39,716 nt of DNA from Desulfonatronospira sp. (GTDB taxonomy: Bacteria > Desulfobacterota > Desulfovibrionia > Desulfovibrionales > Desulfonatronovibrionaceae), in assembly GCA_003551155.1 (NCBI GenBank), contig PUMA01000083.1, positions 1 through 39,716 of the forward strand, read 5' to 3'. Below are positions 3,601 to 26,408 of the stretch, piece by piece. The notes beneath the pieces are model-generated. The model saw only the letters and a program-made list of their open reading frames with translations. It searched no databases and was not told the DNA's origin. A program made the translations under genes and the position numbers. Positions within the stretch are counted from its first letter, which is position 1; each line of letters begins with the position of its first letter.

Positions 3601-3664
3601 CATAATCATACTTAATGAGTAGAGAATGCTGGATCATGGTATTTCAACCAAAGAGGGAGCCCGT

Positions 3665-4084
3665 ATGAAACTATCCACAACCATTCGTTATGGAACCAGG
3701 CTGATGCTGGATATGGCAGAAAATCAGGGAAACGGTCCCATCCGCATCAAAACCATTGCCAAAAGACAGGGCATCTCTGAAAAGTATCTGGAAAAGATAG
3801 TTCGTCTCCTGCGCAAGGCCGGTCTGGTGGATGGACTCCGTGGTCCTGGCGGAGGGTATGTTCTGTCTTCTCCACCGGAGCAAATTACTCTGGGAGCAAT
3901 CCTTGAGGCAGTGCACGGCAGGGTGGAGCTCTGTCCCTGCCTGGGTGAACCGGAAAAGTGTGAAAAGCACCTTTACTGTAAGACCAGGATGGTCTGGAAT
4001 GATATCAACCGGGAGGTTTCTGCCAGGCTGCATAAAACAACCCTGGCTGACCTAAGAGACTCGTCCTGTCCTGTACATCAGTAG
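3665..4084 (+). CDS. Rrf2-family transcriptional regulator, probable Fe-S sensor
   Basis: A winged-helix regulator of the Rrf2 family, which includes IscR, NsrR and RsrR. The N-terminal winged helix reads LSTTIRYGTRLMLDMA, then ISEKYLEKIVRLLRKAGLV and the wing RGPGGGY. The C-terminal half has Cys90, Cys92, Cys99 and Cys105; the C92-x6-C99-x5-C105 spacing resembles the three cluster ligands of IscR. Start ATG 3665 has GAGGGAG 5 bases upstream; the in-frame ATG 3626 lacks a ribosome-binding site. It has its own promoter-like region and is followed by a long non-coding stretch before the DUF362/polyferredoxin genes, which are natural target candidates (inference). No isc or suf genes are adjacent. 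Confidence 0.88.
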   Translation: MKLSTTIRYGTRLMLDMAENQGNGPIRIKTIAKRQGISEKYLEKIVRLLRKAGLVDGLRGPGGGYVLSSPPEQITLGAILEAVHGRVELCPCLGEPEKCEKHLYCKTRMVWNDINREVSARLHKTTLADLRDSSCPVHQ

Positions 4085-4749: not shown

Positions 4750-5727
4750 ATGAGCAAAAAAAAGACAGTATTTGATAAAAATCCATTGTTTTCCAGGTCG
4801 TTTATGTCCCGCAGGGAATTTTTAAAAGCCCAGGGCGGGATTGCTGTTTTCATGGCGGCTTCAGGCGTGGGAATTATGAACTGGCCTGAAAAAGCCAGGG
4901 CAGAAGACTATCCCGATATAGCTCTGTCCACGGGCGTTCCTGATCAAGCTACAAGGACTTCAGTTGAACTTCTTGGCGGAATGTCATCTTTTGTAAATTC
5001 AGGAGACAGGGTGGTTATAAAGCCCAACATGAGTTTTGCGCATACTCCGGACAGGGCTACCAACACTCACCCGGAAGTGGTCAGGGCCCTGGCCCAAATG
5101 TGTGTGCAGGCCGGAGCCTCCAGGGTTTTAGTTTTGGACAACACCCTGCACTCTGCAGAACGCTGCCTGGAGCTGTCCGGTATCAGGCAGGCGTGTTCCG
5201 GTATCTCCGGGACCGAGGTACTGGCATTGAGTTCCGCCCGTTTTTTTCAGGAGGTGGAACTTCCCGGGGCCCTGAACTTTCGCCGCACAGATATCATGCG
5301 GCAGGTTCTGCAAGCGGATGTGCTGATAGCCGCACCAGTGGCCAAGTCACATTCAGCCACAGGGGTCAGCCTGTCCATGAAGGGAATGATGGGCCTGATT
5401 CGCAACCGTGGAGTAATGCACAGCCGTTACAACCTCAATGAAGCCATTGTGGATCTGTGCACCTTCTTAAGGGCGGATCTTACAGTTGTGGATGCTTCAC
5501 GGGTTCTGTCCAGTCATGGCCCTCATGGTCCAGGTGAAGTTATTCGGGGCGATATTGTTCTGGCCTCCAGGGATATGGTGGCTGCCGATGCCAAAACAGT
5601 GGATCTTTTCCCCTGGTACGGCAGGAGCATCAGACCCGAACAGGTGGCACATATCCGCATAGCGCACGAGAGAGGACTGGGCAGGATGGATATTGAAAAT
5701 CTGGATATCCGGACGGTTGAGGCCTGA
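4750..5727 (+). CDS. DUF362 protein with twin-arginine signal
   Basis: A DUF362-domain protein predicted to be exported folded. The N-terminus has a Tat motif SRREFLK (Arg21, Arg22), a hydrophobic stretch (about 30-43) and a cleavage-like KARA-E near residue 51. The DUF362 body shows VVIKPNMSF, THPEVVRALAQM, VAKSHSATGVSLSMKGMMG and DASRVLSSHGPHGPG. DUF362 domains are often found with ferredoxin domains; their biochemical role is not established. Start ATG 4750 follows GAAGGAG. The stop overlaps the next start by one base (TGATG), so the two proteins are made together. At 325 aa it has no cluster motif of its own and probably works outside the membrane with the polyferredoxin encoded next. Confidence 0.85.
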   Translation: MSKKKTVFDKNPLFSRSFMSRREFLKAQGGIAVFMAASGVGIMNWPEKARAEDYPDIALSTGVPDQATRTSVELLGGMSSFVNSGDRVVIKPNMSFAHTPDRATNTHPEVVRALAQMCVQAGASRVLVLDNTLHSAERCLELSGIRQACSGISGTEVLALSSARFFQEVELPGALNFRRTDIMRQVLQADVLIAAPVAKSHSATGVSLSMKGMMGLIRNRGVMHSRYNLNEAIVDLCTFLRADLTVVDASRVLSSHGPHGPGEVIRGDIVLASRDMVAADAKTVDLFPWYGRSIRPEQVAHIRIAHERGLGRMDIENLDIRTVEA

Positions 5728-7364
5728 TGAATTTTAAGCGCACGGTTCAGGCTGCAAGTCTTTTATTCTTTCTGGCCCTGCTTTTGCTTGCTGCTTTTCC
5801 CTTAAAAACCTGGTTCCCCACGGATTTCTTTCTGCGCCTTGACCCCCTGGTTTTTACCGGAACCCTCATCAGTTCCAGGGAATGGGTAAGCGCCCTGGCC
5901 CCTGGATTGATCATTATTCTGCTCACCCTGGTTCTGGGACGTTTTTTCTGTGCCTATATCTGCCCCATGGGCATCACTCTGGATATCAGCGACAGGGTGT
6001 TCAGGCCCAGGTACAATAACTCATTCTTGTCCCCGGAAAAAAGTCACGGACTGCGCAGGGTTAAATTCTGGATCCTTTTTTTCATCCTGGGTACGGCAAT
6101 TGTCGGGGTTTCCACGGTGTTTCTGGGATCTCCCCTGTCCCTGATCACCCGCTTTTATGGCCTGGTGATCTATCCTCTTGCAGTGCATATCCTCGACCTG
6201 GGGCTGGACAGTCTCTTTTTTTTCTATTCCGCTCTGGGACTGGAAAGACTTGCATATATAGAGTTTCAAACGCCCAGGTTTGCCACCCAGGTTTTTGTCC
6301 TGCTGTTTTTTGCTGCTGTTTTTTCTCTGGTGCTTCTTTCTCCCCGCTTCTGGTGCAGGTATCTTTGTCCTTCCGGTGCTGTTCTGGCCCTGTTCTCGGT
6401 TAGACCTTTGCTGCGCAGAACCGTCTCATCCAGCTGCACCGAGTGCGGTCTTTGTCAGAGCAAGTGCCCCATGCAGGCAATAGAGCCGGATCCGGCACGT
6501 ACAAGACACCAGGAATGCATTGTCTGCGAGGAATGCGTGCGCATTTGTCCTGAAAAAGCAATTACCTTTGCCCCCGGATTTCGACAAGCAGACCGGCCTG
6601 CTCCCTATTGGCCCCAGCGACGCAGGGTACTGGCTTCAGTGCTGGGCGGAATGGGGACCGCTCTTCTGCTGCAAACCGGGGTCAGGGAGGTACGCAGCGA
6701 TACAGCCCCTGGCAACCTGGCCTCAAAATTCCTGATCCGTCCTCCTGGAGCCCTGCTTGAGGAAGATTTTCTAGGCCGGTGCATCAGGTGCGGACAGTGC
6801 ATGAAGGCCTGCCCTACAAACCCTCTGCAGCCGGTCTGGTTTGAGTCCGGAATCCTGGGGCTGTTCAGCCCCAAAATTCTGCCCAGGCGCGGACCATGTG
6901 AGCCCTTGTGCAATATTTGCGGCCAGGTCTGTCCAACTGGTGCCATCAGATCCTTGCCTGTGCTGGAAAAAACCTGGGCCAGAATGGGCACTGCCCATGT
7001 ATTGCGGGAAAAATGCCTGGCCTGGGCCTGGGACAGGAAGTGTCTCGTTTGTTTCGAGGTCTGCCCCTATGCGGCCCTGGAGCTTCGCAGGGTACCTGAT
7101 ATTTCCATCCCGGTTCCCTTCGTGCTCCTGGACAAGTGCGCCGGGTGCGGAGCCTGCGAGTTCCACTGTCCGGTCCAGGCTGAATCAGCAGTTGTGGTGG
7201 AGCCCATGAATTCCCTGCGCCTGAACAAAGGATCCTACATTGAGGAGGGCAGAGCCCAGGGAATGTCTCTGGAAGCTGATCCTGACCGGGAAAGAGAGCC
7301 CCCCGAAGATATATTGACTGAAGAAGATTCTCCTGAAGCGCTTCCTCCAGGGTTTAACTATTGA
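5727..7364 (+). CDS. Membrane polyferredoxin, NapH/NapG-like fusion with six [4Fe-4S] motifs
   Basis: A 545-aa redox protein. The first part is NapH/NosR/CcoG-like: hydrophobic segments near 10-27, 55-72, 112-133 and 188-206, with the paired FCAYICPMG (Cys75, Cys79) and WCRYLCPSG (Cys210, Cys214). Then come ferredoxin motifs at Cys237/240/243/247 and Cys264/267/270/274. A second hydrophobic stretch preceded by RRRVLASVLGG (about 298-315) resembles a Tat-type signal anchor. Four more cluster motifs follow (Cys352-362, 391-402, 430-446, 471-481), as in NapG. It looks like NapH joined to NapG in one chain, carrying electrons from quinol or a membrane donor to an extracytoplasmic partner (inference). 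It is coupled to the DUF362 gene by a TGATG overlap. No nitrate or nitrous oxide reductase gene is near. The acidic C-terminal tail (about 515-540) is unassigned. Confidence 0.88.
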   Translation: MNFKRTVQAASLLFFLALLLLAAFPLKTWFPTDFFLRLDPLVFTGTLISSREWVSALAPGLIIILLTLVLGRFFCAYICPMGITLDISDRVFRPRYNNSFLSPEKSHGLRRVKFWILFFILGTAIVGVSTVFLGSPLSLITRFYGLVIYPLAVHILDLGLDSLFFFYSALGLERLAYIEFQTPRFATQVFVLLFFAAVFSLVLLSPRFWCRYLCPSGAVLALFSVRPLLRRTVSSSCTECGLCQSKCPMQAIEPDPARTRHQECIVCEECVRICPEKAITFAPGFRQADRPAPYWPQRRRVLASVLGGMGTALLLQTGVREVRSDTAPGNLASKFLIRPPGALLEEDFLGRCIRCGQCMKACPTNPLQPVWFESGILGLFSPKILPRRGPCEPLCNICGQVCPTGAIRSLPVLEKTWARMGTAHVLREKCLAWAWDRKCLVCFEVCPYAALELRRVPDISIPVPFVLLDKCAGCGACEFHCPVQAESAVVVEPMNSLRLNKGSYIEEGRAQGMSLEADPDREREPPEDILTEEDSPEALPPGFNY

Positions 7365-21618: not shown

Positions 21619-23034
21619 TTGTCCGAACTATTTCGAAAACTGCCTTCAATGGATGCGGTACTGGGCCGTGTGGAAAAAGAACAGGACCTTGCCTCGCTGC
21701 CCAGAAACATGCTCAAGGATCTGGTCAACACCTTTCTGGATCTGTGCCGGGAAGAAATCCGCTCAGGCATTATTACCAGGGAAGACGCTCTGGATCTTAA
21801 AAATCTATGGCCCAGGCTCAGGATCTTTATCAAAGTTCAGGCACGTCCGCATTTCAGGCGGGTGATCAATGCCACAGGAGTGGTCATACATACCAATCTA
21901 GGGAGATCTATCCTGACAGAGGAGGCTTCCAGGGCTGTTACTTCTGCCTGCCTGCACTACTCAAATCTGGAGTTTTCCCTGCAGACCGGCCAAAGAGGAA
22001 GCAGATATTCACATGTGGAAGATCTGCTGTGCCGCATCTCAGGAGCTGAATCAGGGCTTGTGGTCAACAACAATGCAGCGGCAGTGCTTCTGACCCTGGA
22101 CACTCTGGTCAAAACCAGGGAAGTCATTGTTTCCCGGGGGCAACTGGTGGAAATCGGCGGCTCTTTCCGCATTCCCGATGTCATGGCCAAATCCGGAGCC
22201 CGTCTCAGAGAGGTAGGCGCCACCAACCGGACTCATCTTAAGGATTATGAACAGGCCATAGGCCCTGAAACCGGAGCCCTGCTCAAGGTGCACACCTCCA
22301 ATTACCGGATCATTGGTTTTTTTAAAGAGGTGAGCCTGGCAGATCTGGTAAAGCTGGGCCAGGAGCATGGATTGCCGGTTATCGAGGATATGGGCAGCGG
22401 CAATTTTTTTGACTTTCAGGCACACGGTTTTAGTTTTATGCCCGAGCCCACAGTACAGCAGGTGGTCAGGGACGGAGCCGCAGTGGTCTGCTTCAGCGGG
22501 GACAAGCTTCTGGGAGGACCTCAGGCCGGGATAATTCTCGGCAGTAAGCAATATATCGATCGCATCAAGAAAAATCCCTTAAACCGGGCCATGCGCATAG
22601 ACAAGATGACCCTGGCCGCCCTTGAAGCAACATTGAGGCTTTACCTGGATCCTGAACTGGCCAGGCAGAAAGTGCCCACGTTGCGCATGATCACCATGGG
22701 GGAAAAAGAACTCAAGAATAAGGCCCAGAGACTTAAAAACCGGATCAGACGCCACTTGGGAGGACAGGTCAGGTCAAAGGTTTTTCCAGCCTATTCCCGT
22801 GTGGGGGGCGGTGCTTTTCCGGAACAGGACCTGCCCACATATCTGGTGGGCCTTGAGTTCTCCAGTCTAACCTGTGATGAGATCAGGACAGCTCTTCTGC
22901 GCACTGATCCGCCCATGGTGGGACGGGTGGAAGAGGATTTTTTCTGTCTGGATCCCAGGACCATTGATGACTCGGAATTTACAATGGTAGTGGCGGCACT
23001 TAAGGAGGCTCTGCAGGAAGTGGATGACAGATAA
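21619..23034 (+). CDS. selA: L-seryl-tRNA(Sec) selenium transferase
   Basis: PLP enzyme that converts Ser-tRNA(Sec) to Sec-tRNA(Sec) with selenophosphate. RRVINATGVVIHTNLGRS, LQTGQRGSRYSHVE, EDMGSGNF and the PLP-lysine motif FSGDKLLGGPQAG are all present. Length 471 aa is close to the 463 aa of E. coli. The start is TTG at 21619, supported by AGGAGGAA about 5 bases upstream. It shows that the cell makes selenoproteins. selB follows two genes later; selD and tRNA-Sec are not in the window. Confidence 0.97.
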   Translation: MSELFRKLPSMDAVLGRVEKEQDLASLPRNMLKDLVNTFLDLCREEIRSGIITREDALDLKNLWPRLRIFIKVQARPHFRRVINATGVVIHTNLGRSILTEEASRAVTSACLHYSNLEFSLQTGQRGSRYSHVEDLLCRISGAESGLVVNNNAAAVLLTLDTLVKTREVIVSRGQLVEIGGSFRIPDVMAKSGARLREVGATNRTHLKDYEQAIGPETGALLKVHTSNYRIIGFFKEVSLADLVKLGQEHGLPVIEDMGSGNFFDFQAHGFSFMPEPTVQQVVRDGAAVVCFSGDKLLGGPQAGIILGSKQYIDRIKKNPLNRAMRIDKMTLAALEATLRLYLDPELARQKVPTLRMITMGEKELKNKAQRLKNRIRRHLGGQVRSKVFPAYSRVGGGAFPEQDLPTYLVGLEFSSLTCDEIRTALLRTDPPMVGRVEEDFFCLDPRTIDDSEFTMVVAALKEALQEVDDR

Positions 23035-23074
23035 CAGGCGACTGGATTCAGAACACAGACACAGGAGAGAGAAT

Positions 23075-24451
23075 ATGGAGTTCAAGCCCAGGAACTGCTG
23101 GCAGGTTTATAAAAGCAAAAAGCACCGGACAGCCATGGACAGGGTCGCTCATGAATATGTGCGTTTTCTGAGTGAATGCAAGACTGAGAGAGAAACAATT
23201 AACTGGGTGCGTTCCCAGGTCCTTGCCCGGGGTTTTGCAGAAGAATTTCATATGGACAGAGTGTTCAGAGTGCACAAAGACAAAAGCATATTCCTGGCCT
23301 GGAAGGGCAACAGACCCATGGCTCAGGGTGTGCGGCTCCTTGGGGCCCATGTGGACACTCCAAGACTGGATTTCAAACAAAGGCCGGTTTACGAGGAGTG
23401 CCAGATCAGTCTGGCCAAGACCCATTATTACGGGGGAATACGTAAGCACCAATGGCTGGCCAGGCCTCTTGCTCTGCACGGCACCGTGGTCAAGACCGAC
23501 GGAAGCAGGGTAAATGTTAGCATTGGTGAAGACGATAATGACCCCGTGTTTACCGTTGCTGATCTTCTGCCCCATCTGGCCTCCAAGCAGATTGAAAAGA
23601 GGCTGTCCCAGGCCTTTGAAGCTGAAAAACTGAATGTGATCCTGGGGCACGTGCCCCTGTCCGGCAAACCGGATGAAGAAAGAAACGGCAATGAAAAGAA
23701 GGCCGTCAAGAATGGTGTGTTGCGACTTTTGAACCGGAAGTTCGGTATTATTGAAGAAGACCTTTACAGTGCCGAGCTTCAGGCTGTACCTGCCGGTCCG
23801 GCCAGATTCGTAGGCCTGGATCAGGGTCTCATCGGAGGCTTCGGCCATGACGACCGGGCCTGTGTTTTTACCGGGCTCAATGCGTTTCTGGATGCGGAGC
23901 CGTCAGTACATTCCAGGGTGGCGGTTTTCTGGGATAAGGAGGAGATAGGCTCCGAAGGTTCCTGCGGGGCTAAATCCCTTTTTCTGGAATACTGTCTGGA
24001 AGAGCTTTTGGACGCCTGGGAGCCTGAAACCAGGCTTAGAACAATGTTTGCCAATACCAGAGCTCTGTCAGCCGACGTTCATGCAGCCATGGATCCAGAC
24101 TACCAGGATGTTCATGAAAAGCTCAATGCCTCCCTCCTGGGACATGGTCCAGTTTTCTGCAAGTTTACCGGCCACAGGGGCAAGGTGGGAGCCAATGACG
24201 CTCACGCCGAGTATATAGGCTGGCTGCGCAGAATATTGAACAGCGAAAAAATTCCCTGGCAAATGGCAGAAACAGGCAAGGTGGACATGGGGGGCGGTGG
24301 AACTGTGGCCAAGTTCCTGGCTGTCTACGGAATGGACATAATTGATTTCGGTCCTGGCGTGCTGGGAATGCACAGTCCGTTTGAAATTGTGAGCAAGGCG
24401 GACATATATGCCACATATCTGGCCTACTCCAGGTTTTTTTCAGCCGTTTAA
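23075..24451 (+). CDS. M18-family zinc aminopeptidase
   Basis: A probable aspartyl-type aminopeptidase of about 458 aa, the dodecameric M18 family. Metal and catalytic motifs: LLGAHVDTPRLD (His, Asp), GGFGHDDRACVFTGL, FWDKEEIGSEGSCGAKS (catalytic and metal Glu), LSADVHAAMDPDY and the final GMHSPFEI (metal His). The start at ATG 23075 has AGGAGAGA just upstream; the in-frame ATG 23024 would overlap selA. It sits between selA and selB with gaps of about 40 and 49 bases. A direct link to selenium metabolism is not known; it may simply ride in the operon. Confidence 0.92.
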   Translation: MEFKPRNCWQVYKSKKHRTAMDRVAHEYVRFLSECKTERETINWVRSQVLARGFAEEFHMDRVFRVHKDKSIFLAWKGNRPMAQGVRLLGAHVDTPRLDFKQRPVYEECQISLAKTHYYGGIRKHQWLARPLALHGTVVKTDGSRVNVSIGEDDNDPVFTVADLLPHLASKQIEKRLSQAFEAEKLNVILGHVPLSGKPDEERNGNEKKAVKNGVLRLLNRKFGIIEEDLYSAELQAVPAGPARFVGLDQGLIGGFGHDDRACVFTGLNAFLDAEPSVHSRVAVFWDKEEIGSEGSCGAKSLFLEYCLEELLDAWEPETRLRTMFANTRALSADVHAAMDPDYQDVHEKLNASLLGHGPVFCKFTGHRGKVGANDAHAEYIGWLRRILNSEKIPWQMAETGKVDMGGGGTVAKFLAVYGMDIIDFGPGVLGMHSPFEIVSKADIYATYLAYSRFFSAV

Positions 24452-24500
24452 AGGTTAAACAGCTGAAGGATTCAATAAAATGCGCAGTTGAGGAGGTAAA

Positions 24501-26408
24501 ATGCCTGTAATAATGGGCACTGCCGGACACATCGATCACGGCAAGACCACCCTGATCAAAGCCCTGACGGGTATTGAATGTGACCGTCTGGTGGAGGAGA
24601 AGAAACGCGGCATAACCATTGAACTGGGTTTTGCCTTCATGGACCTGGAAGCCGGAGTTCGCCTTGGAATCATTGACGTGCCCGGACATGAGCGATTCGT
24701 CAAGAATATGGTTTCCGGCGCATCAGGAATTGATTTCGTGCTTCTGGTTGTTGCCGCTGATGAGGGAATCATGCCCCAGACCAGGGAACACCTGGATGTC
24801 TGCACCCTGCTCGGGGTGGAAATCGGGCTGGTGGCCTTGACCAAGGTTGACATGGTCGATTCTGAATGGCTGGAGCTGGTCCTGGAAGATGTTTCAAATT
24901 ATCTGCAGAATACCTTCCTCAAAGATGCCCCCATCATACCTGTATCAGCGCATACCGGAGATGGAACAGATCAGCTGCTGGTGCATATCCGGAAAATGGC
25001 CCGGGAGTTCAAGCCCCATCGCCGTTCAGACCTTTTTCGTCTTCCCATGGACAGGATATTCACCATGCGCGGACACGGCACGGTCATTACCGGGACCACA
25101 GTATCCGGCAAGATCGCCGTTGGAGACGAGGTCATGGTTTATCCCCAGGAGATTACGTCCAGGGTCAGATCCTTGCAGGTGCACGGGGAACAGACCCGGG
25201 AAAGCCAGGCCGGAATGCGCACTGCAGTCAATCTGCACGGCCTGGAGGTTGAGGATCTGGAGAGGGGATTTGTGCTGGCCAGGCCTGGTACGCTTTTCCC
25301 ATCCAGGGTCTGGGATCTGGAGCTGACCTACCTCAAGTCCGCGCCCAGGCCTCTTAAACACCGCACTCAGGTACATTTCCACCACGGGGCCAAAGAAGTG
25401 CTGGCCCGGATTTATCTGCTGGATAGGGACAAGCTGGAGCCCGGGGATCGCTGCGTATGTCAGGTTCGCTTTGAAGATTCCATGGCCGGGGTTTACGGAG
25501 ACAGGTGCGTTATACGTTCTTATTCACCTCTTAGAACCATTGCCGGTGCCAGGATTATCAACCCCCTGGCCGGCAAGATCAAGCGCTTTTCACCACAGGT
25601 TGAGATCCTTGAGAGGCTGGCCGGGGCCCGGGCAGAGGAGCTGATCCAGGTACAGCTGGAACTTGCCGGAAGCAAGGGACTTTCCCTGGCCCAGCTGATA
25701 ATACTGACTGATCTGGAGAGCAGGGAATTGCAGAAAAAGTTGCAGGTAATGGGAGGCAAACAGGAAGTCTTTTTAGTGGACAAGGAAAATCGCATATATG
25801 TGGGCGGCAAAGCAATTTCGGATCTGGAACGGGGAATGCTGGAAGAATTGCAGAGTCTGCATCGTAAATTCCCCATGCGCCAGGGCATATCCAGGGGAGA
25901 GCTGGCAGGCAAATGGGCCAGGGAAATCCCTGAGAAGCTGTTCTTTTTTGTTCTGGACCGCCTTGTGCGCGGCGAAAGGATTATATCCGAACAGGAATTT
26001 TATCGCCTCCCTGAACACAGGGTTTCCCTGGCTGCGGATCAGGAGCAACTGAAGCAGAAGGTCGTCAGGACTTACCAGCAGGCCGGCATTCAACCTCCTA
26101 CAGTGAAGAAACTTCTGGAAGATCTGAACCTGGAAATGAAGGAAGCAGGCCCGGTTCTCCGTCTTCTGCAGGATGAAAAGGTCCTGGTGAAGATTAATGA
26201 GGATTTTTATTTTTCTGCCGGGGCTGTGGACCAACTTAAACAAAAAATCACCTCGTTTCTGCAGGAAAACGAGGAAATGGGTCCAGTGGAATTCAAGGAG
26301 CTCACAGGCCTGTCCCGCAAATTCGCCATACCTCTGATGGAATTCATGGATAAGGAAAAACTGACCATCAGGGTCGGGGATAGGCGCAAATTGCGCAGGA
26401 AGGCCTGA
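24501..26408 (+). CDS. selB: Selenocysteine-specific elongation factor SelB
   Basis: Brings Sec-tRNA(Sec) to in-frame UGA codons carrying a SECIS hairpin. The N-terminal EF-Tu-like GTPase shows [25 protein letters not shown] and TKVDMVD. Beta-barrel domains follow ([15 protein letters not shown]). The C-terminal winged-helix domains, which bind SECIS, occupy about residues 380-635. Length 635 aa is close to the 614 aa of E. coli. GAGGAGG precedes ATG 24501. Together with selA it makes the Sec-insertion pathway certain. Confidence 0.97.

Follow-up and report, generated by a model that had tools for sequence, protein, structure and literature searches.

This study examined a pair of adjacent genes at positions 4750-7364 of a 39,716-nucleotide stretch of DNA from Desulfonatronospira sp. 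(contig PUMA01000083.1 of assembly GCA_003551155.1; Desulfobacterota), which was analysed over its whole length and is referred to here as the window. The first gene (4750..5727) specifies a 325 aa protein of the DUF362 family, with a signal for the twin-arginine translocation (Tat) pathway and a predicted LarA-like fold, and the second (5727..7364) a 545 aa polyferredoxin, in which NapH-like and NapG-like parts are fused in one polypeptide, with six [4Fe-4S] motifs and two membrane CxxxCP motifs. Both lie on the forward strand, as do the motifs and the regulator gene described below. At their junction, GAGGCCTGATGAATTTT, the stop codon of the first (TGA, 5725-5727) and the start codon of the second (ATG, 5727-5729) overlap by a single A, as given in a preliminary description of the locus made from the sequence alone. 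The pair recurs across many phyla and in three lineages is accompanied by larB, larC and larE, which suggests, with slightly better than even confidence, that the DUF362 protein depends on the nickel-pincer nucleotide (NPN) cofactor and carries out hydride or electron chemistry beyond the cytoplasm, with the polyferredoxin as its wire.

Conservation of the gene pair

The preliminary description had pictured the two genes as a self-contained electron path, a view that conservation in other genomes could support or undo. Among the genomes of relatives, 49 of 61 contained a DUF362 match, and close orthologues (at least 54% identity) were found immediately 5' of the polyferredoxin gene wherever the contig goes on, one of them with a second DUF362 gene intervening. 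A scan of GTDB genomes yielded 80 named loci, which are spread over Desulfobacterota, Bacteroidota, KSB1, Zixibacteria, Spirochaetota, Armatimonadota, Latescibacterota, Pseudomonadota and others. By our own count the polyferredoxin gene adjoins the DUF362 gene in 66 of the 80 (at one locus it lies 5' of the DUF362 gene, and contig ends or frame breaks interrupt several loci). Clustering of the neighbouring genes returned DUF362 and polyferredoxin as the only clusters common to the loci and found no third gene present in all of them, while for 40 of the 80 pairs no gene on the same strand lies within 150 bp to either side. From this recurring adjacency, the two common clusters and the pairs that stand alone, it follows that the DUF362 and polyferredoxin genes form one unit, and since the pair recurs across so many phyla, the association is far beyond chance. 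The idea of a two-gene path is thereby supported. Tandem or near-tandem duplicates of the DUF362 gene were also seen 5' of the polyferredoxin gene at three loci (L058, L080 and L085).

The DUF362 protein and the lar genes

The DUF362 protein matched PF04015 over its full length (154.8 bits against a gathering score of 24, E=4e-45), and this is its only Pfam family. Its Tat motif, SRREFLK (residues 20-26, 4807..4827), contains two arginines, R21 and R22, that are invariant in 77 homologues, and agrees with the Tat export given in the preliminary description. An AlphaFold model of the protein (pLDDT 92.8) was compared with the PDB using Foldseek at a threshold of E<=1e-3. The matches at ranks 1-18 were all to members of the LarA superfamily (E 2.5e-7 to 3.6e-5), with the next match at 1.1e-3; these are the lactate and malate racemases and their relatives, all NPN enzymes, with TM-scores of 0.38-0.46 on the query. 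DUF362 and the LarA N-terminal family are both placed in Pfam clan CL0471 (PMC11770544). Judged by the model, the protein probably has a fold of the LarA (lactate racemase) type. A literature search centred on DUF362 found no functional study of it.

When the DUF362 and LarA alignments were compared with hhalign (LIAAPVAKSHSATGVSLSMKG against IILTGGVVYHFLAGYGGGPKY), H201 (5350..5352; at least 90% conserved) was aligned with the LarA catalytic histidine (H174 equivalent) and K211 (5380..5382; invariant in the 77 sequences) with the pincer-cofactor lysine, in both cases at low probability. The spacing of ten in H201-x9-K211 equals that of H-x9-K in LarA. H224 (5419..5421), likewise invariant in the 77 sequences, is a candidate equivalent of the nickel-ligand histidine, although it stands at K211 +13 residues rather than at lysine +16 as in LarA, and the first catalytic histidine of LarA has no clear counterpart in this weak alignment. 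The roles of the LarA residues are those given in PMC12611868. DUF362 thus resembles the LarA superfamily (DUF2088, PF09861) in predicted fold, Pfam clan and the spacing between histidine and cofactor lysine, as well as in its operon linkage to larB, larC and larE in three lineages. It differs in bearing a Tat export motif, in length (~325 rather than ~430 aa), in belonging to PF04015 and not PF09861, and in having a membrane partner for electron transfer.

That linkage provides the strongest evidence for the NPN reading. In two genomes of the window's order (L054/L278 and L055/L277), the genes run DUF362-polyferredoxin-larE-larB-larC on the same strand, while the order in four Pseudomonadota genomes (L261-L264) is DUF362-polyferredoxin-larC-larB-larE, also on one strand. 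In the Competibacteraceae it is DUF362-polyferredoxin-larC-(larE)-larB, again co-directional (L131/L273 and L132/L272), with the larE of L131 located elsewhere in its genome; a further Competibacteraceae locus, L271, begins at the polyferredoxin gene and continues with larC-larE-larB. The LarE, LarB and LarC proteins of L054 and L261 score above their NCBIfam cut-offs. As a rough estimate, chance alone would place one gene within four genes of another in ~0.2% of genomes. The three lar-linked lineages occupy three places in the DUF362 tree, of which well-supported branches force at least two, and because their gene orders differ, the linkage has probably arisen more than once. The window's DUF362 protein falls within a supported group of the tree together with the L054/L055 lineage. 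No LarA was found in G046 and G056, genomes in which a lar operon accompanies the pair.

The Desulfonatronospira genome itself encodes LarC (both LarC domains above cut-off), LarB (245.9 bits; cut-off 175) and a LarE-like protein (167 bits; cut-off 150), while LarA was not detected in a search with PF09861 (Lar_N) at E<=1e-15. By its gene content, then, it appears to show an orphan NPN pattern, cofactor genes without LarA, in which the LarE part is not firm. In a published survey about 15% of genomes make the NPN cofactor without LarA, so that proteins not yet recognised must use it there, which was left as an open question (PMC11796402).

Co-occurrence of DUF362 with the lar genes was examined more widely. 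Within the Desulfobacterota, LarE is present in 264 of 297 genomes and discriminates poorly. It was rejected as a marker on its own, being near-universal and with some matches that may be paralogues, and gives a clear picture only once LarA-positive genomes are removed: among the 133 LarA-negative genomes, it was found in 66 of 67 with DUF362 and 48 of 66 without. A draw of 397 Pseudomonadota genomes gave LarC in 27 of the 28 DUF362-positive members and in 12 of the other 369. Of 27 further genomes, from outside the Desulfobacterota or divergent within it, whose loci carry a DUF362 relative and mostly a polyferredoxin, 17 contain both LarB and LarC and the other ten contain neither, with LarE in agreement except in one fragmentary genome. 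As a side observation, the matches to TIGR00268 in sulphate reducers possibly include a paralogue not concerned with NPN. A separate set of 14 control genomes showed DUF362 in Synechococcus, Thermotoga, Haloferax, Methanosarcina and Bacteroides, and LarB, LarC and LarE in the first four of these; LarA was present in Thermotoga and Methanosarcina only, which leaves Synechococcus and Haloferax with DUF362 and the lar genes but no LarA.

Several observations weigh against an NPN-dependent role for the DUF362 protein. The hhalign link to LarA is weak (probability 2%, E=0.022), and a PDB sequence search with the protein or its profile found no chain. In the host genome the lar genes are unlinked to the pair, and its LarE-family gene (G000:C77, L276:3945-5982), which adjoins a methanogenesis-marker-16-like gene, may encode a LarE paralogue, so that the host LarE evidence is not firm and the Desulfobacterota LarE count is weakened too. 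Most of the Pseudomonadota positives seem to form a single clade, and their counts are non-independent. LarB, LarC and LarE are all missing from ten DUF362-carrying genomes (from Bacteroidota, KSB1 and Zixibacteria, and one unassigned), which nevertheless retain K211, H201 and H224; loss, a different cofactor or genome incompleteness are possible explanations, and some of these genomes are incomplete. No residue was found that cleanly divides the DUF362 proteins of lar-positive and lar-negative genomes.

These ten genomes are the best argument for DUF362 working without NPN, whether as an exported electron carrier, as a partner that serves the polyferredoxin in docking or maturation, or with some other nucleotide cofactor in its LarA-like fold, the lar linkage then being incidental or historical. 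The lack of linkage in the lineage nearest the window points the same way, as does the fact that DUF362 itself has no conserved cysteine cluster. Against this stand the full lar gene sets that adjoin the pair in three lineages, in differing gene orders, the absence of LarA from two of the lar-linked genomes, and fold matches that are exclusively to LarA, and a DUF362 protein without NPN is considered unlikely.

The polyferredoxin and the genes around the pair

The first half of the polyferredoxin resembles NapH (NCBIfam E=1e-23) and the second NapG (E=2e-32, residues 297-508). The NapH-like half includes two invariant membrane motifs, C75xxxC79P80 (5949..5966) and C210xxxC214P215 (6354..6371), followed by two [4Fe-4S] motifs on the cytoplasmic side, C237-C247 and C264-C274 (6435..6548). 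An internal twin arginine, R298-R299 (6618..6623; at least 90% conserved), represents the Tat signal of the NapG half and precedes the last membrane helix (298-316), which was seen in the AlphaFold model (pLDDT 91.6). Beyond it, on the exported side, lie four [4Fe-4S] motifs of the NapG type, C352-C362, C391-C402, C430-C446 and C471-C481 (6780..7169), whose 16 cysteines are all invariant in 71 sequences. Taken together, the cluster and CxxxCP cysteines show no variation among 15 homologues, and in the 71 each is either invariant or conserved to at least 90%. Profile matches and conserved cysteines therefore agree with the two halves and the six clusters, four of them additional, of the preliminary description. 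A Foldseek search with the model returned ferredoxin fragments only. Among the Omnitrophota, one locus (L124:5106-6345) has the polyferredoxin split in two, a 222 aa NapH-like protein that lacks ferredoxin clusters and a NapG-like protein bearing a Tat motif of its own; this supports the reading of the two domains.

This family is already known, and the architecture of the polyferredoxin is not new: Tooke et al. 2017 reported that the MLMS-1 protein Q1NSB0 is a fusion of NapH and NapG with a dual dependence on Sec and Tat, and tested its topology (PMC5449189). Using reporter fusions, they showed that the portion beyond the twin arginine is exported via Tat (PMC5449189). Like the window protein, Q1NSB0 has a five-helix NapH-like half, an internal twin arginine preceding the last helix, and four exported NapG-type clusters. 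By analogy with this Tat-dependent topology, the window polyferredoxin likely has two ferredoxin clusters inside and four outside. The authors counted seven clusters, three of them cytoplasmic, whereas the window protein has six ferredoxin-type motifs and the two membrane CxxxCP motifs. Their paper assigns no function to the protein and makes no mention of DUF362 (PMC5449189), whereas in the window the gene for the fusion is coupled to one for DUF362.

The domain plan of the NapGH proteins of periplasmic nitrate reduction matches the two halves of the polyferredoxin, but here these form a single fused polypeptide, with no nitrate reductase nearby and DUF362 as the constant partner. An ordinary NapG or NapH protein was rejected on genomic context and on scores far under the curated cut-offs (112.3 bits against 269 for NapG and 81.5 against 234 for NapH). 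The profile matches to NapG and NapH might otherwise speak for an ordinary NapGH quinol dehydrogenase serving a reductase, of nitrate or otherwise, whose gene lies elsewhere, with DUF362 as a passenger; given those scores, the constancy of DUF362 and the fact that no nap gene recurs, this is barely credible. The NosR family gives a weak profile match and shares the arrangement of membrane CxxxCP motifs and, after them, cytoplasmic ferredoxin clusters, but the polyferredoxin has no match to its N-terminal extracytoplasmic domain and carries the four extra exported clusters.

In the window, no reductase, cytochrome or dehydrogenase gene adjoins the pair, as the preliminary description had stated. 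On the 5' side is a gene for an Rrf2/IscR-type regulator (3626..4084; Pfam Rrf2, E=1e-38), separated from the DUF362 gene by a gap of 665 bp, and on the 3' side genes for a PCC-domain protein and then an aroC-like protein. Gene-neighbour clustering placed this regulator in a cluster that occurs in six loci and lies 5' of the pair in several loci of the same family, and it is possible that this protein regulates the pair. Nor is the pair always found beside a known reductase elsewhere; half of the 80 stand alone. The absence of any further partner, also proposed at the outset, holds for that half, but some lineages add to the pair. Genes for a Tat-motif protein of the aldo/keto-reductase family and a DUF6599 protein adjoin it in L109, L110, L067 and nine Pseudomonadota loci (L261-L269), and the aldo/keto-reductase-family protein of L261 has cysteine motifs at its C-terminus. 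These proteins may be further parts of the system; in most genomes an aldo/keto-reductase gene is missing beside the pair.

The same neighbours, together with the conservation of a pair that mostly stands alone, could be taken to favour a self-contained path to an external acceptor, in which DUF362 is catalytic or accessory without nickel-pincer chemistry and, in some genomes, the cysteine-containing aldo/keto-reductase-family protein is terminal. Such a path leaves both the LarA fold and the lar operons unexplained, and lacks that terminal protein beside the pair in most genomes; it is regarded as improbable. From the earlier suggestion that DUF362 is the catalytic or accessory part of a route to an external acceptor, then, what survives is DUF362 as the likely exported business end, while an unspecified acceptor has proved too vague and nickel-pincer chemistry is indicated instead.

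Two other observations concern the host. Elsewhere in the window (21619-26408), translations of the open reading frames include selA-like and selB-like genes, and on this evidence the host probably makes selenocysteine. At a contig end elsewhere in the genome (G000:C147:2-613, L071) there is a second, cut-off DUF362 protein, with a fructose-bisphosphate-aldolase-like gene on its 3' side and no polyferredoxin match within the 8 kb examined.

A proposed extracytoplasmic redox module

The favoured interpretation, an NPN-dependent DUF362 protein wired by the polyferredoxin, is based on fold, residue pattern and operon linkage to larB, larC and larE, and would make the pair an extracytoplasmic redox module. 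LarB, LarE and LarC would make the cofactor in the cytoplasm, where the DUF362 protein would be loaded before being exported in folded form by Tat. The Tat pathway exports folded, cofactor-loaded proteins, which fits loading with NPN in the cytoplasm. Once outside, the cofactor would accept or donate a hydride with a small organic substrate, a 2-hydroxy acid or oxo acid or a related hydroxy or carbonyl compound, and the polyferredoxin would move electrons between its four outer clusters and either the membrane quinone pool or its two inner clusters. Here we infer cofactor binding by DUF362 and a net redox reaction, as well as the substrate and the direction in which electrons flow. NPN enzymes work by hydride transfer between their substrate and the cofactor (PMC11851776, PMC12611868), and for one LarA homologue a mass adduct of about 450 Da has been reported (PMC11851776). 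With four exported clusters beside such chemistry, a natural extension would be for a hydroxy or carbonyl compound to undergo net oxidation or reduction. The recurring aldo/keto-reductase-like and DUF6599 neighbours hint at carbonyl or hydroxyl chemistry as well.

The known NPN enzymes are, on the other hand, all racemases or epimerases with a hidden redox step (PMC11851776, PMC12611868), and the DUF362 protein could be an exported member of that kind, with which it would share the LarA fold and the lar-operon evidence. The polyferredoxin would then stand outside turnover and serve only to reduce or re-activate an oxidation-prone cofactor or enzyme outside the cytoplasm. A six-cluster wire that is kept across many phyla exceeds the needs of known racemases, and the LarA systems described in the literature examined have no such wire, making an exported racemase or epimerase a minority view, though one that deserves some weight.

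The components all come from known families. What appears to be new, as far as gene content goes, is their combination: an exported LarA-fold protein together with a NapHG wire, joined in some lineages by the lar pathway within one operon, for which no matching described system was found. A broader proposal, held at somewhat less than even confidence, is that DUF362 represents a second, non-LarA family of NPN proteins, with the Tat branch a net-redox NPN enzyme coupled to the electron-transport chain, and with other branches explaining many of the cofactor makers that lack LarA, such as cyanobacteria. The Tat-exported DUF362 protein is a concrete, testable candidate for one of the missing NPN users. 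If true, the redox module would provide the first role for DUF362 and for the NapH-NapG fusion polyferredoxins, and would shift nickel-pincer chemistry from the hidden redox of racemases to open redox in energy metabolism.

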